From positions 1-64,000 of the forward strand of contig NZ_JAEPQA010000017.1 in the NCBI RefSeq assembly GCF_017640745.1: a stretch of 64,000 nt of DNA. The letters run 5' to 3'. Under the pieces are notes generated by a model. It had not been told where the DNA came from. It did not search any database and saw only the letters and a program-made list of their open reading frames with translations. Positions 25,289-50,432 of this stretch are shown piece after piece. Positions within the stretch are counted from its first letter, which is position 1; each line of letters begins with the position of its first letter. A program made the translations under genes and the position numbers. Source of the DNA: Nisaea sp. GTDB lineage: Bacteria > Pseudomonadota > Alphaproteobacteria > Thalassobaculales > Thalassobaculaceae.

Positions 25289-27130
25289 ATGGGACTTCTG
25301 GTTGCCCAGCTTCTGGCGGGGCTGGCGAACGCGGCGGCGTTGTTTCTCGTCGCCTCCGGACTGTCGCTGATCTTCGGCGTCACCCGGATCGTCAATTTCG
25401 CCCACGGCTCGCTCTACATGCTGGGCGCCTATTGCGGCTACACGGCGCTGCAATATCTGACCGGACCGCTCGGCTTCTGGGCGGCGGCGCTCGCCGCCGC
25501 CGTTGCCGTCGGTCTCTTCGGCCTGCTGGTCGAGTGCCTGATCCTGCGGCGGCTCTACAAGGCGCCGGAACTGTTCCAGCTGGTCGCGACCTTCGGTGTC
25601 GTGCTGGTCGTGCAGGATCTGACCCTGATGCTCTGGGGGGCGGAGGACCTGCTCGGGCCGCGCGCGCCGGGGCTCGACCGCGCGGTGATGCTGTTCGGCC
25701 AGCCGGTCCCGGAATACGACCTCGCCCTCATCGCAGTGGCGCCGCTCGTGCTGCTCGGCCTCTGGCTGCTGATGACGAAAACGCGGGCCGGGATCCTGAT
25801 CCGGGCGGCGACCCAGGACCGGGAGATGGTCGGCGCGCTCGGCATCAACCAGTCGCTGCTCTTCAGCGGCGTGTTCTTTCTTGGCGCAGCGCTCGCCGGT
25901 CTGGGAGGCGCGCTGCAGCTCCCGAAGGGCGGGGCCGACCTCACGCTCGATCTCGGTATCCTCGCGCCCGCCTTCGTCGTCGTCGTGATCGGCGGAATGG
26001 GGTCAATCGGCGGCGCCTTCGTCGCTGCGGTGCTGATCTCCGTCGTCAATGTCTTCGGCGTGCTCTACCTGCCGGAAAGCACGCTGGTGCTGATGTATGT
26101 CGTCATGGCCGTGGTGCTTCTGGTGCGTCCGCACGGTCTCTTCGGCCGGGCCGAGCTGCAGGCGGGACCTCCTGCCGCCGGGATCCCGGACCGGCCGCTG
26201 GCGCCGCTCGGGCCGCGCTGGCGGACCGCTGCACTGGCGCTCATCGGACTGCTCGCCGTGCTGCCGCTCATCGGAAGCGATTTCGCGCTGGTGCTCGCGA
26301 CCGACATCGTGGTGCTCGCGCTTTTCGCCGCGAGCCTGCATTTCATGCTCTCGCTCGGCGGGCTGATCTCCTTCGGCCATGCGGCCCTGTTCGGCGGCGG
26401 TGCCTATGCGGCGGCCCTTGCCGTGACCTACGCGGAAACCCCGATGGAGCTTGCGCTGCTCCTGGCGCCGCTGGCGGGCGGCTGGCTTGCCTTCGCCATC
26501 GGCTGGTTCTGCCTGCGCCTGACCGGAGTGTATTTCGCCATGCTGACCCTCGCCTTCGCCCAGCTGCTCTGGTCGCTCGCCTTCCAGTGGACGGAGGTGA
26601 CCGGCGGCGACGACGGGCTGATCGGGATCTGGCCGGCGGCCTGGGCCTCCGACGGCACGGTCTATTACTACCTGACCATCGTCCTCGGCGGCGGTGCGAT
26701 CCTGATGCTGCGGCACCTTGCGCATTCTCCCTTCGGATACGCGCTCCGGGCGGCGCGGGATTCCGAGAAGCGGGCCCGCGTCTCCGGCATCCGGGTCGAC
26801 CGGGTCCGGCTCGCGGCGATGGTGGTTTCCGGCACCATGGCCGGGCTGGCGGGCGGGCTCTTCGTCTTCTCCAAGGGCAGCGTCTTTCCGAGCGCGCTGG
26901 AGATCGCGCGTTCCTTCGACGCGCTGATCATGGTCTTCCTCGGCGGCGTCGACGCGCTCGGCGGACCGCTCGTCGGTGCGGCGGCCCTGACCCTGCTGCA
27001 GGACTGGCTCTCCCGCCTCGAAAGCTGGCGGCTGCTGCTCGGCCTCGCGGTCATCGCCATCGTGCTCCTTGCTCCGACCGGAATTGCGGGGTTTGCCGGG
27101 CGTCTGCTCCGACGCCGGGAGGCTTCATGA
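25289..27130 (+). CDS. Fused LivH-LivM ABC permease
   Basis: The protein has 613 residues. The first half (to ~290) is a complete LivH-type permease (SGLSLIFGVTRIVNFAHGS, GGMGSIGGAF). From ~315 a complete LivM-type permease follows (LSLGGLISFGHAALFGGGAYAAA, RAARDSEKRARVSGI). LivH and LivM are usually separate genes. The ATGA overlap with the next gene shows coupling. Confidence 0.93.
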   Translation: MGLLVAQLLAGLANAAALFLVASGLSLIFGVTRIVNFAHGSLYMLGAYCGYTALQYLTGPLGFWAAALAAAVAVGLFGLLVECLILRRLYKAPELFQLVATFGVVLVVQDLTLMLWGAEDLLGPRAPGLDRAVMLFGQPVPEYDLALIAVAPLVLLGLWLLMTKTRAGILIRAATQDREMVGALGINQSLLFSGVFFLGAALAGLGGALQLPKGGADLTLDLGILAPAFVVVVIGGMGSIGGAFVAAVLISVVNVFGVLYLPESTLVLMYVVMAVVLLVRPHGLFGRAELQAGPPAAGIPDRPLAPLGPRWRTAALALIGLLAVLPLIGSDFALVLATDIVVLALFAASLHFMLSLGGLISFGHAALFGGGAYAAALAVTYAETPMELALLLAPLAGGWLAFAIGWFCLRLTGVYFAMLTLAFAQLLWSLAFQWTEVTGGDDGLIGIWPAAWASDGTVYYYLTIVLGGGAILMLRHLAHSPFGYALRAARDSEKRARVSGIRVDRVRLAAMVVSGTMAGLAGGLFVFSKGSVFPSALEIARSFDALIMVFLGGVDALGGPLVGAAALTLLQDWLSRLESWRLLLGLAVIAIVLLAPTGIAGFAGRLLRRREAS

Positions 27131-27888
27131 ACGCGGTGCTGGAAGTACGGGGTCTCTCCAAGGCCTTCGGTGGCGTCCACGCAGTCGAGGATCTCGGCTT
27201 CGATCTCCGGGCGGGAGAGCGTCTCGCCCTGATCGGACCGAACGGGGCGGGCAAATCGACCTCGTTCCAGATGCTGATGGGCGAGCTCCGCCCGGACGCA
27301 GGCACCGCCTGTTTCGAGGGCGTCGATCTGGTCGGCATGGAACCGCGCGAGATCTGGGCGCTCGGTGTCGGCCGCACCTTCCAGATCACCTCCGTCTTCG
27401 CCTCCATGACGGTGGCGGAGAACGTGCAGACCGCGTTGCAGGCGCGGAATGGCCAGAGTTTCGATCCTTTCCGCCGCGCTCGCGCCCTTCACCGTGATGA
27501 GGCCATCTCCCTGCTGGAGCGCGTCGGTATGGCGGAGCAGGCGGACCGACCGGCCAGCGTGCTTGCCTATGGTGACGTGAAGCGGCTCGAATTCGCCATC
27601 GCGCTCGCCGGAGAACCGCGGCTTCTGCTGATGGACGAGCCGACAGCCGGGATGGCGCCGAGGGAGCGGCACGCGCTGATGGATCTGGTCTCGGGCATCG
27701 TTGCCGAGCGCGGCATCAGCGTGCTCTTCACCGAACACGACATGGACGTGGTTTTCGGCCATGCGGACCGGATCATGGTGCTCGACCGGGGACGGCTGAT
27801 CGCCGACGGGACGCCCGACGCCGTGCGCGCGGATGCGAAGGTGCGGAGCGTCTATCTCGGTTCCGGAGCGGAGACGGGCCATGCTTGA
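27127..27888 (+). CDS. ABC importer ATP-binding protein (LivG-like)
   Basis: The protein has 253 residues with Walker A GPNGAGKST, Walker B LLLMDEPTAGM and the LivG-type signature region LAYGDVKRLE in place of LSGGQ. The start at 27127 overlaps the permease stop by 4 nt. The frame is open far upstream but that part is antisense-like shadow of the permease. It powers the importer with LivF. Confidence 0.92.
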   Translation: MNAVLEVRGLSKAFGGVHAVEDLGFDLRAGERLALIGPNGAGKSTSFQMLMGELRPDAGTACFEGVDLVGMEPREIWALGVGRTFQITSVFASMTVAENVQTALQARNGQSFDPFRRARALHRDEAISLLERVGMAEQADRPASVLAYGDVKRLEFAIALAGEPRLLLMDEPTAGMAPRERHALMDLVSGIVAERGISVLFTEHDMDVVFGHADRIMVLDRGRLIADGTPDAVRADAKVRSVYLGSGAETGHA

Positions 27889-31310: not shown

Positions 31311-32873
31311 CTAGTGCGTGCCTGTCGCCTTGAGATCGTCGAGGGCGTTCCTGAGATAACCGACGCGCGCCGCCGGCAGCCAGACGGAGACGGTGGTTCC
31401 GACATCCACTTCGCTCTCGAGCGTGAGCGTGCCGCCATGCAGTTCGACCATCATCTGCGCCAGCGGCAGACCGAGGCCGGTGCCGCTCTGCGACGCGGTA
31501 ATCTCGTCGTCGAGCCGCTCGAAAGCGGTCAGCGCCTTCGGTATCTGATCCGACGGAATACCGCGACCGGTATCGGAGATATGGAACTCGATCCCGCCCC
31601 GGCGGCTGTCGCCGTGGCGCGGCCTGAGAGAGACGATCGCTTTGACCGTGCCTCCCGCCGGTGTGTATTTGACCGCATTGCCGAGCAGGTTCAGCAGCAC
31701 CTGTTTCATTTTCGTAGGATCGACATCGAGCACCAGTTCCGGGTCGACCTCGGACCGCTGTAGCTCGATGCCCCGCTCGTCCGCCAGCGGCTTGACCAGC
31801 CGGACCGCTTCGGAGACCAGCGCATCGACGCCGACGATCTCCTCCTCGAGCGAGTCCTGTCCGGCCTCGATGCGGGCGATGTCCAGCAGTTCGTTGATGA
31901 TCTTCAGCAGGTGTCGTCCGCTCTCGCGGATATCGACCGAGAACTCCCTGTAGCGCTCGTTCTCCAGCTTGCCGAGCGTGCCGTGCGCCATGATGTCCGA
32001 GAAGCCGATGATGGCATTCAACGGGGTACGCAATTCGTGGCTCATCGCGCGCAGGAAGCGGGTCTTGGAACTGTTGGCGAATTCGGCGGCTTTCTTGGCG
32101 ATCTCGAGCTCGCGGGTGCGCTCGCGCACGCGATCTTCGAGATCCCGGTTGAGGTCCCCGAGATCCGCCTCGGAGCGGCGCAATTCCTCGTTGACGGACC
32201 GCAGCGTCAGCTCGCGCTGGCGCTCGCGCTCCACCATGGTGTTGTAGGCCTGAACGACCAGCCCAAACTCGTCCCGGCTCTGCCAGTTCACGGTCTGCAG
32301 TTCGCCGCAGTCCGAGGACTCCCGGATGGCTTCAAGAAGGCGCTTCAGCGGCCGGTCGACGAGGAAGAAGAAACCAACGACAACTGCGATCAGCGCTGCA
32401 AGGAAAGCGACGGCTATCGCTGTCGCACCGGCGGTATATTCGAACTGCCGGGTTTCCCTTATTTCCTTGTCCGTAAACATCACGCGCAAGGACCAGAGCC
32501 CGTTCTTGGAGGCCGGGATTCGGATCTCCATGCCGTCGAGATTTTCCGGACAGCCCTGCGCCGACGGCATCGCCATGGCCGGTGCCTCGTTACCTTTCGT
32601 CAGCTCGGCACAGAGGAAGGCACGATCGGCGGCGAGCGGCGACAGCAGGTCGCGGGCGAGGAAAGGCTTGTCGTAGGCCGCGTGCCGGTCGACGGCGAGG
32701 GCCGTGCGGGCGGTCAGATTGCCGATCCGGCTGGCGAGGAGCTCCTCGTCGGCGAGCGAGGCGGTGACGAGCAACAGCCAGATCCCCGGAACGATGAGCG
32801 CAAGGAAGGTCACGCCGACAATTGCCAGCAATTTGACCTTCAGCAGTCTCGGGAATGGAGGATTGGCGCCCAT
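31311..32873 (-). CDS. Membrane sensor histidine kinase
   Basis: The protein has 520 residues. TM1 is at ~14-38. A ~105-residue periplasmic domain with Cys88 and Cys108 (possible disulfide) follows. TM2 is at ~148-172, then HAMP, and a coiled coil at ~215-265. HisKA has SHELRTPLNAIIGFSD with His279. The HATPase has NAVKYT, DTGRGIP and GTGLGLPL. There is no response regulator nearby, so it is an orphan. It lies 31 nt downstream of a small secreted protein gene and probably shares its transcript. Confidence 0.93.
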   Translation of the reverse strand: MGANPPFPRLLKVKLLAIVGVTFLALIVPGIWLLLVTASLADEELLASRIGNLTARTALAVDRHAAYDKPFLARDLLSPLAADRAFLCAELTKGNEAPAMAMPSAQGCPENLDGMEIRIPASKNGLWSLRVMFTDKEIRETRQFEYTAGATAIAVAFLAALIAVVVGFFFLVDRPLKRLLEAIRESSDCGELQTVNWQSRDEFGLVVQAYNTMVERERQRELTLRSVNEELRRSEADLGDLNRDLEDRVRERTRELEIAKKAAEFANSSKTRFLRAMSHELRTPLNAIIGFSDIMAHGTLGKLENERYREFSVDIRESGRHLLKIINELLDIARIEAGQDSLEEEIVGVDALVSEAVRLVKPLADERGIELQRSEVDPELVLDVDPTKMKQVLLNLLGNAVKYTPAGGTVKAIVSLRPRHGDSRRGGIEFHISDTGRGIPSDQIPKALTAFERLDDEITASQSGTGLGLPLAQMMVELHGGTLTLESEVDVGTTVSVWLPAARVGYLRNALDDLKATGTH

Positions 32874-32904
32874 CGGATCAGCCTGAGAGTAGCCGTGCGT
32901 TGGT

Positions 32905-33309
32905 TTATTGAACCCGCTTCACGCGTCCGTCCTTCATCAACCGCTGCAGCAGAGCGCGGTCGGCGACGGCGGTATGGAAAACGACATAATCGCCGTTGTT
33001 CCGGGCCATGTAGTAGTCGATCGGCACGTCCTTTCCGGAATCGTCACGGAAATCGAAGCAGAGGACATAGTGATCCGCCATCGACAGGATCATAGGATGG
33101 GCCGTGACCGGATGCAGTTTGTGAACCTCGCCATCATTCGGATCGAGATAGAGAACCGAGCCGTCGACCAGTGTGCTGTCGACATGCCGCTGCATCGCGG
33201 CCTGGATCGCCGCTTTCTCGGAGAGGGTGAGCGCGGACGCGGACCCGAACGGAGCGATTGCCGCGGCAAACATGAAGAACCCGAGTGCAAGGAGGTGAAT
33301 TCTGGTCAT
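32905..33309 (-). CDS. Small secreted protein of unknown function
   Basis: The protein has 134 residues. The signal peptide is ~1-26 (LLALGFFMFAAAIAPFGSASA). The mature part is about 108 residues, with a helix (LSEKAAIQAAMQRHVDSTLV) then strand-rich sequence (SVLYLDPNDGEVHKLHP, YVLCFDFRDDSGKDV). I do not recognise a named family. It is transcribed just before the histidine kinase gene, so it could be a periplasmic accessory or ligand-binding partner of that sensor. Confidence 0.8.
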   Translation of the reverse strand: MTRIHLLALGFFMFAAAIAPFGSASALTLSEKAAIQAAMQRHVDSTLVDGSVLYLDPNDGEVHKLHPVTAHPMILSMADHYVLCFDFRDDSGKDVPIDYYMARNNGDYVVFHTAVADRALLQRLMKDGRVKRVQ

Positions 33310-33534
33310 CGTTTCTCTCGTCCTGCTGGAATTTTCAGCGTTTTATCATCGAGATAATAAAGAAGCGGTTAATTCTGGAATACTGGTTCAATTATCTTAA
33401 ATGCCATCTATTCGGCGCGCGATCGGAGTGCGCGTTCCGCTTCCCGGGATAGCCGGCGAACCGATTGACAGCCTCGCCCGTGGGGCTAGGCTCCCCACCC
33501 GGCACCTCCCGCCCCCCAAGTCTTCCGGATTCAC

Positions 33535-34122
33535 ATGCTTACATTCGCAACGGCGATCTTTTTCCTGATCATCACGCCAGGGATCGGGGTTCTGACGACA
33601 GCTGGCATCGGGGCCGGATACGGATTCGCTGCCGGTATACGGTTCCTGATCGGGCTCTTCTTCGGGACCAACGCCGTGGCGGTGCTGACCGTGACCGGAA
33701 TAGCGGCGGTGGTGCTGGCAAATCCGATCCTCGGGCCTGTGCTGTTCTATGGATCGGCCGCCTACCTGCTTTATCTCGCCTTCAGGATTGGCTGGGCCGG
33801 CTCGAAGATCGCTTTCGTCGAGCGGCAGAGCGCGCCGGGAATCGTCGGCGGGTTCCTGCTGCAGCTGATCAATCCGAAGGCCTACGCAGTCAACACCACG
33901 CTCTTTTCCGGCTTTCATTTCATGCCCGAGAACATGAGCATGGAACTGGCGCTGAAATTCCTGATCATCAACGCGATCTGGGTTCCGGTTCACCTGCTCT
34001 GGCTCTGGGCCGGCGTTTCGCTCAAGCATCTGGACCTGTCGGAGCGCAGCCAGTCCCTGATCAACAAGGGCATGGCATTGTCGATGCTGATCGTCGTCGC
34101 TCTGGCCGCGACGAGAGGCTGA
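33535..34122 (+). CDS. LysE/RhtB-family amino acid exporter
   Basis: The protein has 195 residues and about six hydrophobic segments. The family motif after the first helix is TPGIGVL, with LLQLINPKAYAVNTTLF at ~110. The N-terminus is slightly shorter than usual, but no better start is seen. It sits 18 nt upstream of the D-threonine aldolase-type gene, so it may export an amino acid related to that enzyme. The 225 bp before it contain an AT-rich patch (33330-33400) shared with the divergent secreted-protein gene. Confidence 0.85.
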   Translation: MLTFATAIFFLIITPGIGVLTTAGIGAGYGFAAGIRFLIGLFFGTNAVAVLTVTGIAAVVLANPILGPVLFYGSAAYLLYLAFRIGWAGSKIAFVERQSAPGIVGGFLLQLINPKAYAVNTTLFSGFHFMPENMSMELALKFLIINAIWVPVHLLWLWAGVSLKHLDLSERSQSLINKGMALSMLIVVALAATRG

Positions 34123-41171: not shown

Positions 41172-41453
41172 TTCTGCGCAGCGATGGTCGCGCCCTGCGT
41201 TCCCTCTAGGATGCAAATAGCCTGAATTGCTGACGATTTTTCTGTTTTTTTTTCCGGCTCCTAATGGATCAATCCGCTGAAAGCCGAAGTGCGCAGCATA
41301 ATCACTGTGCAAAATGCGGTGCATAGGAAGAGTTGTCGCCAGACGGCACGCATCTGAAAACACCTAGTTAAAAAATGTTTTTTCAATCATGGCGAGTGAT
41401 ATATTATGGTTTTTTTAGAGTAGATATAGCGACTTTATTTTGGGGGATTTGTT
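41172..41453. other. Boundary of AT-rich islet, non-coding
   Basis: Base composition falls abruptly from about 41215. I see no gene, tRNA or clear direct-repeat attachment site. A tatattat element near 41400-41406 could be a promoter -10 for the islet. A ggggga ribosome site (41442-41447) precedes the GTG at 41454. Confidence 0.5.
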
Positions 41454-42011
41454 GTGCTCCGAAATTTTCTTTTAATAGTTTTCTTAAACGTTTCCCTGTC
41501 GAGTAACGCTCTTTCCGAAGAGCTCGCTCCATTCTCTCAGCTACTGGAGCTCATTGATAAAGAGATTGCAAACGCGCAAACTTATTCAACGCGTGAATCT
41601 CCTGTTCGAATTGACGAAGTGCTTCTTGATGCGAGTGTGGTCGAAAAAACCCAAATCGTCGGCGGCCTTGCAATAAAGACTCCGATGATTGAACTGGGTG
41701 CGGAGACAGCTCAATCCGCGCAAAATGTTCGACGGCTGAAGTTTTATTTTCGAGCAAAACCCGATTTAAACATCAGTGATGACGAGGGTCTTGCGCTAAC
41801 CGAGGCGATACAACAAACAAAAGTTGTCTTCACAGATGCCATCAATAATAGCAAATTCCTGATTCCCGAATATGCTGATTATACGTGGAGCTTCACCGTC
41901 TCGCGCAATGCCGATGGTAGTTTGGGATTTCTAGGTTTTCGATCTGGCATCGACTTGGAGACAAAGAATTCGCATTCCATAACGGTTCGTCTAATAGCTT
42001 TGAACTATTGA
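41454..42011 (+). CDS. Exported protein resembling a duplicated trypsin-co-occurring domain 2 (Trypco2)
   Basis: The protein has 185 residues with a GTG start and a signal peptide at 1-~21 (FLLIVFLNVSLSSNALS). The mature protein has two similar halves, each a helix followed by strands. Half 1 is FSQLLELIDKEIANAQ, then VRIDEVLLDASVVEK and NVRRLKFYFRA. Half 2 is LTEAIQQTKVVFTDAI, then YTWSFTVSRN and SHSITVRLIAL. Half 1 fits the pattern I know for Trypco2, a small domain found beside trypsin-like proteases in bacterial conflict-type loci. The next gene, 28 nt away, encodes such a protease. Usual Trypco2 proteins are short and not exported, so this version is unusual. The family call is by eye and not certain. 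Confidence 0.6.
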   Translation: MLRNFLLIVFLNVSLSSNALSEELAPFSQLLELIDKEIANAQTYSTRESPVRIDEVLLDASVVEKTQIVGGLAIKTPMIELGAETAQSAQNVRRLKFYFRAKPDLNISDDEGLALTEAIQQTKVVFTDAINNSKFLIPEYADYTWSFTVSRNADGSLGFLGFRSGIDLETKNSHSITVRLIALNY

Positions 42012-42039
42012 CGTAACGATAACATGGAAGGGCGACATT

Positions 42040-43551
42040 ATGAAAAAATTATCGGTTATTTTGTACATATTGATTTTCTTCGCAAACTTTGCGGCACCAA
42101 ATGCAGGGAACGCGTTTGAAGTCTGCGATAGCGGTGAGAGCGATCCCAGGTTGAGAGACCGTTTCTATCAATCCGCAAATAGTTGGCTTGTGAAATTTTT
42201 TGAACAGCGCCGTCCGATCGCGAATTCAAGAAACGGTCTGAGTGATTCGCAAATCTCTAAGGATGTTCCAATTGGACATGGGGTCATCATTTCGGGGCGT
42301 GGCCATACTCTCACCGCCCTGCATGTCGTGGAAAACAAGGACTTCAACAAACTGATAGCCAGAAACGCGCTTGGGCATGAATTCAGGCTCGAAAGAGGTT
42401 TTTTGAAATCCGCACCTTCAGCGCATGAGATTGTAAGAGAGGCGGCCATCATCCGGTTAACTCCGAGCGAGCAATCGTCTGACAACGGCTACGCATCCTG
42501 GGCCACGCCTCTTTTGCGGCTGGGCATAATGGATGGTGGTGAAGCCAATCGATCAGGCAACGAAGCACTGAACGCTAGAAATCTTTTCCTGGACACCCTC
42601 AAACCGCAACACGATCGCATACAAACAAAGACAGAGACAATTGTTTATGAAAACAATAGAAGGTTCCGCTTCAATCAATCGATGGAGCGTGGTTTCAGTG
42701 GGTCTCCAGTATTTGATTGTCGATTTAATCTGGTTGGGATTTTGACGCAGGCGAATTCGCGCACTGATCAGAGCGAGATGATATATATTGATGATTACTA
42801 TGATTTATTGATTTTGAATAGAATAAATTTTCTGCCGCCAAAAAAACTTCAACCAACCATTTATCACAATAGAATATCCGAGTTGCAGCAATACTTTCTT
42901 AACATGAGGGATGAGTTCTTCCCTGTCCTGTCCGAGTTTGTCCACTTAAAATCATCCTATGACAGTCTTCAGGATTTTTACGCGTATGGTGATCGGGATA
43001 GTGACTATTATTCGACAATAAAAAATAATAGGGAAATTATCTATAAAACGGTAGACATTGAGGGTGTGCCTGAGCGTTATGTTGTATTTTCTTTTACTAA
43101 GAAGCTTGAATTGCAATACGATATAGACGAGGTATCAATGGATTTATGCCTAAATTTGAAAAATCCGGCCGCTAAGCATGTATCGGATAAAGAGGGGTGC
43201 AGTGAGGGGATCCCTGTTCCCGCCTGGGCTATCTTCAAGCCCGAGGTTGAAATGTTTCGAGGGAAAACGAATTTCATAAAAGCCATTTCTGTTCATGACA
43301 TAAAAAGTCAGATAAAGAAAAGCACGTTTCGCGAGAATCGATTTATTCCCAATAAGCGCGATCAAATCAAAGAGGAAGACGTTACAGGGGTCACCTTTAC
43401 TTTGACCGTTTACCATGACGGGCAAAAGCGACACGAGGAGGTATCGGCATTAATGAAAAATCTGGGTATGTCTGACTTCGAAAAAAGAATTCCGTGGCAG
43501 CAAAGTACCTACAGATGGATTACGCCCATTGATTATATCTTTCCTAGATAA
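42040..43551 (+). CDS. Exported trypsin-fold serine protease with unknown C-terminal domain
   Basis: The protein has 503 residues. An ATG after ggaaggg and a signal peptide at ~1-28 start it. The protease core (~55-265) has GHGVIISGRGHTLTALHVV with the catalytic His and RGFSGSPVFD with Ser in GxSGS. At the usual Asp site (D-x-A-x-L) the sequence reads REAAIIRL, so Glu or Ala replaces Asp. Residues ~280-503 match no family I recognise and appear strand-rich. Codon and base use are AT-rich like the preceding gene and unlike the neighbours. It probably works in the periplasm with the Trypco2-like protein. Confidence 0.75.
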   Translation: MKKLSVILYILIFFANFAAPNAGNAFEVCDSGESDPRLRDRFYQSANSWLVKFFEQRRPIANSRNGLSDSQISKDVPIGHGVIISGRGHTLTALHVVENKDFNKLIARNALGHEFRLERGFLKSAPSAHEIVREAAIIRLTPSEQSSDNGYASWATPLLRLGIMDGGEANRSGNEALNARNLFLDTLKPQHDRIQTKTETIVYENNRRFRFNQSMERGFSGSPVFDCRFNLVGILTQANSRTDQSEMIYIDDYYDLLILNRINFLPPKKLQPTIYHNRISELQQYFLNMRDEFFPVLSEFVHLKSSYDSLQDFYAYGDRDSDYYSTIKNNREIIYKTVDIEGVPERYVVFSFTKKLELQYDIDEVSMDLCLNLKNPAAKHVSDKEGCSEGIPVPAWAIFKPEVEMFRGKTNFIKAISVHDIKSQIKKSTFRENRFIPNKRDQIKEEDVTGVTFTLTVYHDGQKRHEEVSALMKNLGMSDFEKRIPWQQSTYRWITPIDYIFPR

Positions 43552-43558
43552 AAATTCT

Positions 43559-43592
43559 GCATGATATAAAAAACGATCATGCTGTGTTTTTT
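43559..43592 (+). terminator. Rho-independent terminator of the islet
   Basis: The stem gcatgat/atcatgc (43559-43565 with 43576-43582) is followed by tttttt at 43587-43592, 8 nt after the protease stop. Confidence 0.75.
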
Positions 43593-43651
43593 GGTGTGAA
43601 TTATTTTGCGCTGGATACGTCGGTGTTGGCGTTCTGGTCTGTGCCATTTCC

Positions 43652-45751
43652 TCACCCCGCCTCGCGCCGCCACGCCATGATGATCCCGCCGATCACCAGC
43701 AGCAGCACCAGCACGCCCGGAAGCAGAGGCACGGTGCGGACGCCCGTCACAATGTAATCCTCGTTCCGGATCAGCCCCGCCCAGTCGCGGCCTGACGTTG
43801 CGCGGCCGGCGCGGACGCGGCGGAGGTCGGGGACGGCTTCCTCGGCACCCCAGGTGACCGAGCCGCCGGTCTCCTCCGCCACTGGGCCGAGCCACTCATC
43901 CGTGGTGCGCACGTCCGAGAGCTCGATCGGGTTGAGCGCGCCGACGGCGGCGAGCTTGGTCAGCACCCCGTCGGCGAAACTGTGCAACCCGACCTGGTCG
44001 GTGGTGAAGCTCGCCTGGCCGCGGCCGGGGCCGGTGCGGGTGAGCGGCAGGGTGACCGTCTCCCCGTCCGGCAGGGTCATGGTCACGTCCGGCAGCTCGC
44101 CGTCGAGGGAGCGGCGGATCACCTCGATCTCCTCGCCGCGCACGCGGACGCGGAGATCGTTTTCCTCCAGGTCCGGCTCGCGCATCAGCCAGTGGGCGGT
44201 GCGGCGCAGCAGTTCGGCCTGCGGGCCGCCGCCGTCGAAGCCACGGGTCCAGAGCCACATCTGGTCGGTCAAAAGGTGCGCGACGCGGCCCTCGCCGAAG
44301 CGGTCGAGCACCAGCAGCGGGCGGCCCTCCGGCCCGTCCATCAGCACCACGCCGCGCAGCACGTCGGCCTCGATCTGGCGGAACCAGCGGCCCCAGGTCG
44401 CCCCTTCCGCCTCGATCCCGTCGGCGTCGAGCTGCGGGCCGCCGGTCAGGCCCGAGGTCACCGGATGGCGGTGGCCATCGAGCGTGGTATGGGCGCGGAA
44501 CGGCTCCTCGATGATGGCGCCGGTCGGCATCGCTGGCAGAACCTCGCCGAGCGGGGTGTTGGCGAGCGACAGGCGCGAGGCGAAGGGCGGGCCACTCGCT
44601 TCCAGGAAGGCGCCGCCCTTGCGCACGAACTCGACGATGTTGCGCAGGTAGCTGCGCGGCAGCACGCCGCGGCGCTGGTACTGGTCGAAGATGATCAGGT
44701 CGAACTCGTCCAGCTTCAGCTCGAACAGCTCGCGCACCGGAAAGGCGATCAGCGAGAGCTCGCGCACCGGCGTGCCGTCCTGCTTCTCCGGCGGGCGCAG
44801 AATCGTGAAATGCACGAGATCGACGGACGGATCGGCCTTCAGCAGGTCGCGCCAGGTACGCTCGCCCGCATGCGGCGCGCCAGAGACCAGCAGCACGCGC
44901 AGCCGGTCGCGCACGCCATTGATGGCGAGCACCGCACGGTTGTTCTTGATGGTCAGTTCGTCCTCTCCCGGCGCCGCGGTAAGCTCGACGATGGTCTCGC
45001 CGCCATGGGTGATCGGGATTTCGATCTCCACCACCTGGTTGGCGCGGATCACCTGATCGGGTTGGGCGACGCCGTCGATGGAGAGGCTGAAGGGCACCGC
45101 CGCCGCTTCCTCCGCGTCCTCGACCCGGATCTTCGCGGTGACGGAGCGGCCGACGACGCCGAAGGAGGGCACATGCTCGACCACAAGGCGACGGTCGCGT
45201 TCGCCGCGCTTGCCAGTCAGGATGACATGCAGCGGCGCGCCGAGATCGCGGCCGCGCAGTTCCTCCACCCGGTCGTGGCTCTGCCCGTCGGTCACCGCCA
45301 GCACGCCGGCGAGACGGCCCTGCGGCACGTCATCCAGCACGTCGCGCAGGGCGGCGAAGATGCGGGTGCCGTCACGCCCGCTGCCGGCCCGCGCGCGGCC
45401 GCCGTCCAGCGTCACCACGCGGAGGTCGAGATCCTCGAAATCCTGAAGCTGGCGCTGCAGGTTCTCGGAGATCGCCGCGGCCCGCTCCGTGCGTCCGTCG
45501 ATGCTCTGGCTGGTGCTCTCGTCGAGCAGCAGCACGGCGACGTCGTTGCGCGGATCGCGGTCCTCGGCGATCAGGTAGGGATTGGCCAGCGCGGCGACGA
45601 GCACCGCGAGCGCAAGGCTGCGCCACACCACCCCGCGGCCGCGCAGGACGGCCGTATAGACCACCAGCCCGATCCCGGCGGCGGCGAAGAGCGCGATCGC
45701 CCACCAGGGGATCATCGGCGAGAAATCGATGCCGACGGCGGATCCGATCAT
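43652..45751 (-). CDS. Large membrane protein with glutamine-amidotransferase-like/VWA-like domain (Bat-type operon)
   Basis: The protein has about 699 residues from ATG 45751, which has gagga 10 nt upstream and lies 13 nt after the previous stop. Two N-terminal membrane helices are followed by a VWA-like start (DVAVLLLDESTSQS, with DxSxS). A class I glutamine-amidotransferase-like region (VLLVSGAPHAGERTWRDLL, FDLIIFDQYQRRGVL, GGAFLEASGP) lies in the middle. A C-terminal helix (LLPGVLVLLLVIGGIIMAW) ends the protein. It is the last gene of the moxR operon. Related operons act in cell-envelope or stress functions, but the exact role is unknown. Confidence 0.82.
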   Translation of the reverse strand: MIGSAVGIDFSPMIPWWAIALFAAAGIGLVVYTAVLRGRGVVWRSLALAVLVAALANPYLIAEDRDPRNDVAVLLLDESTSQSIDGRTERAAAISENLQRQLQDFEDLDLRVVTLDGGRARAGSGRDGTRIFAALRDVLDDVPQGRLAGVLAVTDGQSHDRVEELRGRDLGAPLHVILTGKRGERDRRLVVEHVPSFGVVGRSVTAKIRVEDAEEAAAVPFSLSIDGVAQPDQVIRANQVVEIEIPITHGGETIVELTAAPGEDELTIKNNRAVLAINGVRDRLRVLLVSGAPHAGERTWRDLLKADPSVDLVHFTILRPPEKQDGTPVRELSLIAFPVRELFELKLDEFDLIIFDQYQRRGVLPRSYLRNIVEFVRKGGAFLEASGPPFASRLSLANTPLGEVLPAMPTGAIIEEPFRAHTTLDGHRHPVTSGLTGGPQLDADGIEAEGATWGRWFRQIEADVLRGVVLMDGPEGRPLLVLDRFGEGRVAHLLTDQMWLWTRGFDGGGPQAELLRRTAHWLMREPDLEENDLRVRVRGEEIEVIRRSLDGELPDVTMTLPDGETVTLPLTRTGPGRGQASFTTDQVGLHSFADGVLTKLAAVGALNPIELSDVRTTDEWLGPVAEETGGSVTWGAEEAVPDLRRVRAGRATSGRDWAGLIRNEDYIVTGVRTVPLLPGVLVLLLVIGGIIMAWRREAG

Positions 45752-45764
45752 CGTGCCATCCTCC

Positions 45765-48539
45765 TCATTGCCCGAGCCTTTCGAGAATGGCGGGGACATG
45801 CACCTGATCGGCCTTGTAGTTCCCGGTCAGCATGTACATCACCAGGTTGACGCCGGAGCGGAGCGCCATCTCGCGCTGGATCTCGCCGCCCGGCACCACC
45901 GGGAACTGGTAGAAGCCGTCGTCGGACTTCGCCCAGGCGGCGGCCCAGTCGTGGCTGCCGATGATCACCGGGGAGACCTCGCTGGAGCGGTCGCCCTCGC
46001 CCTGCTGGACATAGAGCCGGCCACCCTCGTAGCGGCCGGGGAAGCTGTCGAGCAGGTAGAACGCCTTGGTCAGCACATGGTTCTCCGGAACCGGCGCGAG
46101 CGCGGGGATGTCGAGCTCGCGGGTCAGGGAGCGCAGCCGCTGCAGGCCGGGACCGGCGCCGCTGCCGCTGTCGATCCGGTCCCGCGTGTCGAAGAAGAGC
46201 GTGCCGCCGTTGCGCATATAGAGGTTCAGCCGTGCCACGCCGTTCGGCGTCAGGTCGCTCTGCGCCTCGGTGATCGGCCAGTAGAGCAGGGGGAAGAGCG
46301 AAAGCTCATCGACCTCGACATCGACCGCCATCGGCTCCAGCGGCTCGACGGCGGTGCGCTGGGTCAGGACCTCGGTCAGGCTGCTGAGGCCGGAACGGCT
46401 GATCTCGTCGACCTCCCGGTCCCCGGTGATGACATAGGCGAGCCGGGTCGCGAGCGCGGCCCGCATGATCCAGCGGTCCTCCTCACTCATCGGCGCGCCG
46501 CTGGAGATGATGTTCTGTGCCTGAACCGATGCCGGGACGCTTGCAAGCACGGCGCCGAGCAGCAGAATCGCCGCGGTCTCGCGCACCCGGGCATTGCCGA
46601 CGCCCGGCACGAGGCCGCGCATCACCAGGGTGATGATGAAGTCCGCGAGCAGCAGCAGGACCGCCGCCGTCAGCGCCCATGGCGCGAGATCGAGTTCGTC
46701 GCCGCCGCCGTAGCTGACCCGCGACGTGCCGCCGGGCAGGGCTTCCAGCGGCGTCATCTTTGCCGCTTCCGGCCCGAGATTGACCGCCGTGCGGGAGAGC
46801 TCGCTGCCGTAATAGCCGGGCGGATGCTCGTGATCGACCGACGCGGCCTCGCCCTTCAGGAAGGAAACGGCACGTGCGCTCGCCGGCGGCGTTCCGAGCT
46901 GGCCCATGCCGTCCAGCGTTTCGACCGGTGCCGCGGCACCGCCTTCCGCCCGCTGCCCGACGCCCGCGCTGACCGCGACGATGCGCCGGAGCATCTCGAC
47001 AAAGGCGCCGGAGAGCGAGAGGTCGCTCCAGTCGGTGTTGGCCGTGGTGTGGAAGAGGACAATGCGGCCGTCCTCGCGCGCCATGGCGGTCACGATGGGC
47101 GTCCCGTCGATGAGGCTCGCCCAGGTCCGGTCCGCGAGTTCGATCGAGGGCTCGGCCAGCACCTGCTTGTAGATCAGCACGTTGTCATAGTCGGGGAGAT
47201 CGGCGAACGGCGTCTCGCCGTCGAACGGCGCGAGCGCGGCCGGTTCCGACCAGGAGAGCACGCCGCCGAGCGAGCGGTCGCCGCCGCGCAGACGGACCGG
47301 CAGCAGCTCGGATTCGCCGAGCCCGCGGTTTTCCAGGCTGGCGGCGGCAAGGCGCGGACCCGCAAAGCGGATCAGCGTGCCGCCCTTCTCGACCCAGTCG
47401 AACAGCTTCTGCTTCTCCGCCGGCGGCAGCAGGCCGGTATCGGGCAGGACGATCACCGAGATGTCGCGCTCGAGGAACTCCGCGAGCGTGCCGCGGCTGA
47501 CCTCGCTGAACGGCGACAGGGCCCGGTCGATGAAGAACATCTCCTCCAGCAGCGGTTGGGAATCGGCGAAGCCGGTGCCCGAGACGAGGCCGACCGGACG
47601 CCGCCGGAAACTCTCGTCGAGGAGCGCGACGGAGGCCGCGCCGGGCAGGTCGGCAATCTCCAGCCGGGCGAGCTCGTTGCGAAGCTCCAGGGGGAGTTCC
47701 ACATTCACCTCCGCCGCCGGCTCGCCCTCGGCGAAGGTGGCGGCTGTGCGGGTGAGCACCCGTCCGTCGGTTGCCACGGCGCGGATATTCACGATCTGCT
47801 GCGCGCCCGGTTTCAGCCGCGTGACCCGCGCGGTCAGGGCGTTGCCGTCTCCGATCCGGGCCGTCAATGCGATCGGCTGCTGGCCGCCTTCATAAACCGT
47901 CAGGGCGCCGAAGCGGATCAGCTGCTCGGCCATAGCGGCATCGTCCGCGTCCTGGATCCCGTCGGAAAGCCAGAAGACCGAGGCCGGCCGCTGGATCGGT
48001 GCCGTCTCCATTCGTTCCGCCGCGACGGAGGGCACACTGGCCCAGGGCTGGGGCGCGAGCGCATTGACGAAAGTGCGGGCCGCCTCTGGCGCCATGAGGC
48101 CGCCGCGCTCCAGCGCCGCCGAGTCCGAGAGCGCGGTCGGGAAGACCGCGATTTCCCGTCCGGCCCGCTCGGCGCGCTCGATCAGGTCCAGCGCCGCGGC
48201 CTTGCGTTCGGCCCAGCCGGGCGCGGACGCCCAGCCGTTATCGACGACGATCACCACCGGACCTCCGCCGTCGAGCTCCTCCTTGGCGCCGATCAGGGGC
48301 TGCGACAGCGCGAGAATAACGAGGGCTGCAAACAGCAGGCGCAGCAGCAAGAGCCACCAGGGCGTGCGGTCCGGCGTTTCCTCCGGCGACTGCAGCCCAT
48401 AGAGCAGACGGATCGCCGGAAAGGCGACGGTGCGGGGCGACGGCGGGGTAATCCGGATCAGCAGCCAGATCGCCGGCAGCACGATGAGCGCGGTGAGTAT
48501 CCACGGAGACGCGAAGGCGAGCGGGCCGAGACTCAGCAT
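45765..48539 (-). CDS. BatA-type N-terminus / DUF4159 membrane protein
   Basis: The protein has 924 residues. The BatA-like N-terminus has two membrane helices (FASPWILTALIVLPAIWLLI, LLLLRLLFAALVILAL) around PRTVAFPAIRLL. A long periplasmic or cytoplasmic middle with VWA-like features and a membrane helix near 660 follow. The C-terminal DUF4159 domain (RAALATRLAYVITGDREVDE, NGGTLFFDTRD) is fused, which is the normal alphaproteobacterial form. It is the third gene of the moxR operon. Confidence 0.87.
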   Translation of the reverse strand: MLSLGPLAFASPWILTALIVLPAIWLLIRITPPSPRTVAFPAIRLLYGLQSPEETPDRTPWWLLLLRLLFAALVILALSQPLIGAKEELDGGGPVVIVVDNGWASAPGWAERKAAALDLIERAERAGREIAVFPTALSDSAALERGGLMAPEAARTFVNALAPQPWASVPSVAAERMETAPIQRPASVFWLSDGIQDADDAAMAEQLIRFGALTVYEGGQQPIALTARIGDGNALTARVTRLKPGAQQIVNIRAVATDGRVLTRTAATFAEGEPAAEVNVELPLELRNELARLEIADLPGAASVALLDESFRRRPVGLVSGTGFADSQPLLEEMFFIDRALSPFSEVSRGTLAEFLERDISVIVLPDTGLLPPAEKQKLFDWVEKGGTLIRFAGPRLAAASLENRGLGESELLPVRLRGGDRSLGGVLSWSEPAALAPFDGETPFADLPDYDNVLIYKQVLAEPSIELADRTWASLIDGTPIVTAMAREDGRIVLFHTTANTDWSDLSLSGAFVEMLRRIVAVSAGVGQRAEGGAAAPVETLDGMGQLGTPPASARAVSFLKGEAASVDHEHPPGYYGSELSRTAVNLGPEAAKMTPLEALPGGTSRVSYGGGDELDLAPWALTAAVLLLLADFIITLVMRGLVPGVGNARVRETAAILLLGAVLASVPASVQAQNIISSGAPMSEEDRWIMRAALATRLAYVITGDREVDEISRSGLSSLTEVLTQRTAVEPLEPMAVDVEVDELSLFPLLYWPITEAQSDLTPNGVARLNLYMRNGGTLFFDTRDRIDSGSGAGPGLQRLRSLTRELDIPALAPVPENHVLTKAFYLLDSFPGRYEGGRLYVQQGEGDRSSEVSPVIIGSHDWAAAWAKSDDGFYQFPVVPGGEIQREMALRSGVNLVMYMLTGNYKADQVHVPAILERLGQ

Positions 48540-48548
48540 GGCGCTTCC

Positions 48549-49406
48549 CTACCCGTTCTGCCGCGTCATCGCGGCATAGAGTTGCAGCAGGGCCGCTTCC
48601 GGCGCTTCGGAGGTGACATGCTGGGCGAAGAACCAGCCTGCCGTACGGCAGGCATCCTTCAGCCGGGCGCGGTGCAGCGCCAGCTTCTCGACATAGGCCT
48701 CGCGCACCCTGTCGGCACGGCGGAGCAGGTGCGCGCTCTCTGCTTCGGTGCCTTCGAAACGGATGCGCCCCTGGAACGGGAAGGCCTCCTCGGCCGGGTC
48801 GGTCACCTGCAGCAGGAAACCGGAGACGCCGGAGGCGGCGAAGTGGCCGATGATCGCGGCATAGTCCTCCGCCGGTTCCATGAAATCGGAAACCATGACG
48901 GTGACGGCGTGGCGCGGAAGATGTTCAAGCGCCGGCAGGCTGGCGGCGCTGCTACGCGCATTTTCCAGCGTGTTCGCGAAGAGGTTCAACCCGCTCCGCC
49001 CGCCGCGCGGCGGCGCCCCTTCTCCGAGCAGCGCGATCCGTTCCCCGGCTTCGGTGAGCAGCGCGCCAAGCGCGAGGACCAGAAGATCGGTACGCGCCGC
49101 CTTTTCCGGCAGGGTTCGATCGGAGGCGAAGCGCATGGACGGTGAGGCGTCGCGCCAGATCCAGACGCTCTGGGAAGCCTCCCACTCCGTCTCGCGGACA
49201 TAGACCTCGTCACTCCGGGCCGTGCGGCGCCAGTCGATCCGGCGCACCGAGTCGGTTACCTGATAAGGGCGGAACTGCCAGAACGCCTCGCCCATGCCGA
49301 CCCGCCGCCGTCCGTGCATGCCCTGGGAGACGGTCGCAGCTACACGTTCCGCCGCCACGAGCAGCGGGGGGAATTTACCGGCGAGTTCCTCGGCGTGATG
49401 ACGCAT
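48549..49406 (-). CDS. DUF58 domain protein
   Basis: The protein has 285 residues. The DUF58 signature is RRRVGMGEAFWQFRPYQVTDSVRRIDWRR written in order at ~33-61 with the key RxIDW. A degenerate VWA-like fold follows (WIWRDASPSM). It is the second gene of the moxR operon. DUF58 proteins pair with MoxR AAA ATPases in chaperone-like assembly of envelope complexes. Confidence 0.9.
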   Translation of the reverse strand: MRHHAEELAGKFPPLLVAAERVAATVSQGMHGRRRVGMGEAFWQFRPYQVTDSVRRIDWRRTARSDEVYVRETEWEASQSVWIWRDASPSMRFASDRTLPEKAARTDLLVLALGALLTEAGERIALLGEGAPPRGGRSGLNLFANTLENARSSAASLPALEHLPRHAVTVMVSDFMEPAEDYAAIIGHFAASGVSGFLLQVTDPAEEAFPFQGRIRFEGTEAESAHLLRRADRVREAYVEKLALHRARLKDACRTAGWFFAQHVTSEAPEAALLQLYAAMTRQNG

Positions 49407-49421
49407 GGCGCGCGCCCCGGA

Positions 49422-50432
<1,011 letters not shown>

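Follow-up and report, generated by a model that had tools for sequence, protein, structure and literature searches.

The window, which is the whole 64,000-nt stretch of DNA analysed, contains an AT-rich islet at positions 41215–43600. The islet has a GC content of 42.9%, whereas the other 2.3-kb stretches of the window have a mean of 66.6% (sd 2.1, minimum 60.6%). It holds two ORFs, ORF1 and then ORF2, both on the + strand and separated by 28 nt (Table 1). The GC content at third codon positions (GC3) is 0.43 in ORF1 and 0.47 in ORF2, compared with 0.86–0.91 in the neighbour genes. The composition of the ORF1-ORF2 islet is foreign and not native to the chromosome. An initial annotation had described an AT-rich islet with two genes at this spacing, and both the GC scan and the ORF coordinates agree with that description. 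Two other compositional features are present in the window. Positions 25500–27500 show a strongly negative AT skew (to about -0.38) within a GC-rich stretch, and positions 32500–34000 show a milder dip in GC (0.58–0.60), which may be a further small insertion.

ORF1 begins with a GTG start codon, which is preceded by a GGGGG ribosome-binding-like run. The initial annotation had also assigned the pair its own promoter and its own terminator. The promoter is statistically unsupported: there are three consensus matches where 4.8 are expected from shuffled sequences, and one of the three is upstream of ORF1. The terminator is plausible. A hairpin at positions 43559–43582 consists of a 7-bp stem and a 10-nt loop and is directly followed by TTTTTT; the terminator scan overlooked it because of the long loop. 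This hairpin and T run probably end the transcript of the pair.

Table 1. Positions of the islet genes, their domains, candidate expression signals and flanking genes
Feature	Position	Strand	Basis or remarks
Left flank, presumably a cytochrome b561-like gene, 184 aa	40617..41171	+	Same neighbour in four congeners; homology ends at stop codon
Possible sigma-70-like promoter, TTTTCA-16-TATTAT	41380..41407	+	Consensus match only, frequency no higher than in shuffled sequence
ORF1, exported tandem Trypco2-like protein, 185 aa	41454..42011	+	Signal peptide predicted at about residues 1–21
First Trypco2 unit of ORF1, residues 27–97	41532..41744	+	Pfam PF19631 22.3 bits, E 1.5e-4; hhalign 97.2%, E 3e-11
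Second, degenerate Trypco2-like unit of ORF1, residues 110–185	41781..42008	+	hhalign with canonical Trypco2 88.7%, E 2.5e-6
ORF2, exported trypsin-fold protease, 503 aa	42040..43551	+	Signal peptide predicted at about residues 1–25; His95, Glu134, Ser220
Trypsin_2 domain of ORF2, residues 79–234	42274..42741	+	Pfam PF13365 30.5 bits, cut-off 27.6
Hairpin and T run, likely intrinsic terminator of the pair	43559..43592	+	RNA fold -10.1 kcal/mol, z -1.95
Right flank, 715-aa gene, last of an operon presumably of MoxR-DUF58-BatA/DUF4159 type	43652..45799	-	Convergent to the pair; in 22 of 36 family genomes

Variable content of the insertion site

The islet lies between two convergent genes. The gene on the left is one that we take to be cytochrome b561-like, and the gene on the right is the last of an operon (43652–50432) that is presumably of the MoxR-DUF58-BatA/DUF4159 type. 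The same neighbours are at the same place in all four congeners analysed (G001–G004). Homology among the five genomes ends at the stop codons of both flanking genes, with the exception of approximately 200 bp that G002 and G003 have in common beside the left flanking gene.

The DNA enclosed by these genes is different in each congener. In G004, the closest congener, the site has a 597-aa gene of 41% GC (L067 2334–4124). Its product is, by reading, presumably a membrane protein, and it is without a Pfam, PADLOC or PHROG match. The site in G001 (L068, G001:C1 between 3043134 and 3044999) has an exported LysM-like gene (362 aa) and a small membrane-protein gene (193 aa) of 37–41% GC; neither protein has a firm family match, and the LysM match of the 362-aa protein is under the Pfam cut-off. 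In G002 (L069, G002:C7 between 139572 and 140304) there is a 151-aa ORF similar to the N-terminal half of UzuA of the Uzume defence system (E 3e-27), which represents a truncated defence gene. In G003 the site is an empty gap of 226 bp. Since the same convergent flanks enclose different genes or nothing across the congeners, the site between the b561-like and 715-aa genes is an insertion hotspot for accessory genes.

No integrase was found at the site. A tRNA-targeted integration and one that leaves direct repeats at its ends were both rejected, as there is no nearby tRNA and no repeat that convincingly brackets the islet. None of the other 35 genomes of the order, the four congeners among them, has the exported pair, which is therefore not universally conserved at this locus. 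This absence from relatives, together with the non-native composition and the variable site, supports a horizontal origin of the pair, in line with the insertion described in the initial annotation.

The exported proteins and their relatives

By inspection of the sequences, the N-termini of both ORF1 and ORF2 show a short N-region and a hydrophobic core, followed by a plausible cleavage site for signal peptidase. This supports the earlier assignment of signal peptides to both proteins. The trypsin fold that had been read in the second protein is likewise supported, as the Trypsin_2 score of ORF2 is above the Pfam cut-off. The C-terminal region of ORF2, approximately 260 residues, is without a family match.

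The proposed resemblance of ORF1 to Trypco2 has a less direct basis. Its Pfam score is under the curated cut-off of 24.2 bits. However, among 385 genomes of the class that were searched, G344 (MAG B5T1B8, JADFMW010000114.1), a bacterium of another alphaproteobacterial order, encodes a homologue (P0001) that is full-length and 23% identical to ORF1. This homologue scores 70.2 bits to Trypco2, with two Trypco2 stretches, and through this intermediate and profile comparison the relationship of ORF1 to Trypco2 is supported at the sequence level. Both halves of ORF1 link to canonical Trypco2 by hhalign with profiles that included the G344 homologue, and ORF1 therefore probably consists of two Trypco2-like units in tandem, of which the second is degenerate. 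The C-terminal unit of ORF1 has no Pfam match when searched alone, and the corresponding unit of the G344 homologue scores 18.2 bits to Trypco2. A profile comparison of the two ORF1/G344 halves against each other gave no direct match. A sequence search of the PDB gave no Trypco2 homologue, and AlphaFold2 models built from two-sequence alignments have pLDDT values of 36 (ORF1) and 28 (ORF2).

The gene order is also the same in G344. A protease gene is 33 nt downstream of the Trypco2 gene, as measured to its likely ATG start, and encodes a protein with a signal-peptide-like N-terminus and a Trypsin_2 domain (75 bits). The G344 pair is AT-rich relative to its host, with GC3 values of 0.55 and 0.44 vs 0.89–0.95. 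The two pairs are similar in that an exported tandem Trypco2 protein precedes an exported trypsin-fold protease in an AT-rich segment; they differ in the low identity of the Trypco2 proteins, in the acidic residue of the protease triad (Asp in G344), in chromosomal site, and in the C-terminal region of the G344 protease, which has no clear similarity to that of ORF2. An ORF that we take to be HicB-antitoxin-like adjoins the G344 pair (L010 214–552).

The exported pair is very rare. It is present in 2 of the 385 genomes of the class, and no new case was found among 398 genomes of the phylum. Searches of plasmid records, phage records and viral contigs gave a single homologue of the pair, a canonical Streptomyces Trypco2-trypsin pair. 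A scan of genome contigs gave no match with the ORF2 query, and the G344 protein query matched the G344 contig alone. Any one genome has few exported trypsin-fold genes, and we therefore estimate it to be very improbable that two orders of the class would share this two-gene arrangement by chance. Recurrence in one unrelated bacterium suggests a small movable envelope module.

Trypco2 takes its name from gene neighbourhood: it accompanies trypsin-like proteases in NTP-dependent conflict systems (eLife 2020, PMC7159879). Trypco2-trypsin pairs have been described in conflict systems (PMC7159879, PMC10907252). A literature search found no paper with an experimental test of Trypco2 function. In the genomes searched here, a trypsin-like ORF is directly downstream on the same strand in 8/8 canonical Trypco2 matches of at least 70 bits (L027–L033, L039). 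The Streptomyces plasmid copy is likewise directly upstream of a trypsin-like gene. The Pfam trypsin match is below the cut-off in five of the seven canonical partner proteases scanned, so that the alignment of their His and Ser motifs was also used to assign the partners. No trypsin-like gene is directly downstream of the genes for three weaker Trypco2 proteins that lack a signal peptide (L034, L082 and L083; 47–50 bits). Other weak Trypco2 matches (L007, L008, L009, L026/L038, L084 and L085) were discarded as spurious, off-frame or uninformative.

Signal-peptide-like N-termini are present on all four proteins of the window and G344 pairs, and are absent from the canonical Trypco2 (0/5) and trypsin (0/3) proteins checked. 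Because the canonical proteins lack signal peptides, the window pair is, as judged from its sequences, an exported, tandem-Trypco2 variant of the known Trypco2-trypsin partnership. Exported Trypco2 also occurs without a nearby protease. G706 encodes an exported protein of 314 aa (L035 4446–5390) that has two Trypco2 stretches, as does ORF1, but is lipoprotein-like; a homologue with 65% identity is on the Burkholderia vietnamiensis plasmid pBVIE01 (L073 4974–5921). No trypsin-like gene was found by motif within about 5 kb of the G706 gene.

Proposed function and alternatives

The reading that we favour, with moderate confidence, is that ORF1 and ORF2 form a mobile two-gene extracytoplasmic module with a defence-type accessory role, in which the Trypco2 protein would control or aim the protease. 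Control of ORF2 by ORF1 is suggested because Trypco2 proteins are partners of trypsin-like proteases in conflict systems (PMC7159879). ORF1 would be exported as a two-unit Trypco2 protein and ORF2 as a C-terminally extended trypsin-fold protease. The Trypco2 protein would bind the protease in the envelope and control or aim it; the model for this binding is the presumed role of Trypco2 toward trypsin partners without signal peptides. A perturbation of the envelope, e.g., phage adsorption, DNA entry or the attack of another cell, would then release or activate the protease, and the active protease would cut an envelope protein or a protein of the invader. The analysis shows the genes and their domain relationships, the signal-peptide-like N-termini, the presence of the exported pair in two lineages, its foreign composition in each of them, and an insertion site of variable content. 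From this we infer the interaction, the control by Trypco2, the proteolytic activity, the trigger, the substrate and the defence benefit. The UzuA remnant at the hotspot and the resemblance of the trypsin domains to proteases of defence proteins also speak for this reading. Points against it are the rarity of the exported pair, the Glu at the triad Asp position of ORF2, the lack of an NTPase or sensor gene in the islet, and the exported Trypco2 protein of G706 with no protease found nearby.

A more specific version is a stand-alone immune module of the envelope, in which the periplasmic tandem Trypco2 would itself sense an invader or breach and unleash the protease without an NTPase or cytoplasmic sensor. 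We regard this version as rather unlikely. Few known defence systems act in the envelope.

An alternative is that the pair is an exported protease with an inhibitor or chaperone, similar to HtrA/DegP with a helper, that serves in protein quality control or nutrient digestion and was acquired horizontally with no conflict function. Both proteins are exported and the closest PDB matches of the G344 protease are HtrA/DegP proteases (E about 1e-10), but Pfam detects no PDZ domain in ORF2 or in the G344 protease. The rarity of the pair, its foreign composition in both hosts and the defence-like variable content of the site also argue against a quality-control function, as does the description of Trypco2 as a partner from conflict systems (PMC7159879). 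We consider this alternative somewhat improbable.

The protease could also be catalytically weak or dead, with the pair acting by binding, e.g., as a decoy or dominant-negative regulator. In an alignment of ORF2 with the G344 protease and nine other proteases, His95 and the GFSGSP serine (Ser220) of ORF2 are conserved, but the triad Asp, present in most of the other proteins, is replaced by Glu134 in ORF2 and by Gly in one canonical homologue (L028). The His-Asp-Ser triad of the G344 protease is intact. Glu is able to act as the triad acid in other hydrolases. With Glu134, ORF2 may be active, weak or dead. In related systems, trypsin domains at the vWA effector position are often inactive (PMC7159879), which would fit a binding role, as would the Glu of ORF2 and the Gly of L028; the retained His and Ser, the use of a Glu acid by other hydrolases and the intact G344 member argue against it, and we find a pair that acts by binding distinctly unlikely.

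The least probable alternative, to which we give very little credence, is a toxin-immunity or toxin-antitoxin-like cargo, in which the protease would harm neighbour cells or the host envelope while the Trypco2 protein shields the producer: a two-gene islet at a variable site with the partner gene first and both products exported would suit it, but domain searches of the pair found no secretion-system or trafficking domain and no canonical Trypco2 protein is known to be an antitoxin.

Comparison with known systems

The trypsin domains of the pair match the protease domains of the LmuA, RT-Protease and Avs1b defence models with 24–65 bits. These matches reflect the common trypsin fold and are no proof of a defence role. 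The PADLOC anti-phage models gave weak matches to protease domains and no specific full-length match; the LmuA match (24.4 bits) extends over half the model. Compared with HtrA/DegP, ORF2 is likewise an exported trypsin-fold serine protease, but it has a different C-terminus in which no PDZ was detected, and a Trypco2 partner.

The adjoining MoxR-vWA-type operon was considered as a VMAP system linked to the pair. This was rejected, as the end gene of the operon occurs in many family genomes that lack the pair, and congeners have other genes at the site. The nearness of the operon is probably a coincidence, given how common its end gene is. There are no VMAP, MoxR ATPase or vWA genes within the islet, and no MoxR gene was found by reading of the ORFs on the 8.7-kb G344 contig. 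The pair belongs to no VMAP-MoxR-vWA ternary system.

The Trypco2-trypsin pairs of VMAP/MoxR-vWA systems nevertheless resemble the window pair in that Trypco2 is directly upstream of a trypsin-fold protease gene and the distribution is patchy. They differ in that the canonical partners checked lack a signal peptide and have a single Trypco2 unit, whereas in the window both proteins are exported, Trypco2 is in tandem and there is no VMAP gene. For a minimal exported pair without the large ternary machinery, two purified proteins would suffice to test the role of Trypco2, and the range of conflict-type protease pairs would then include the envelope as well as the cytoplasm.
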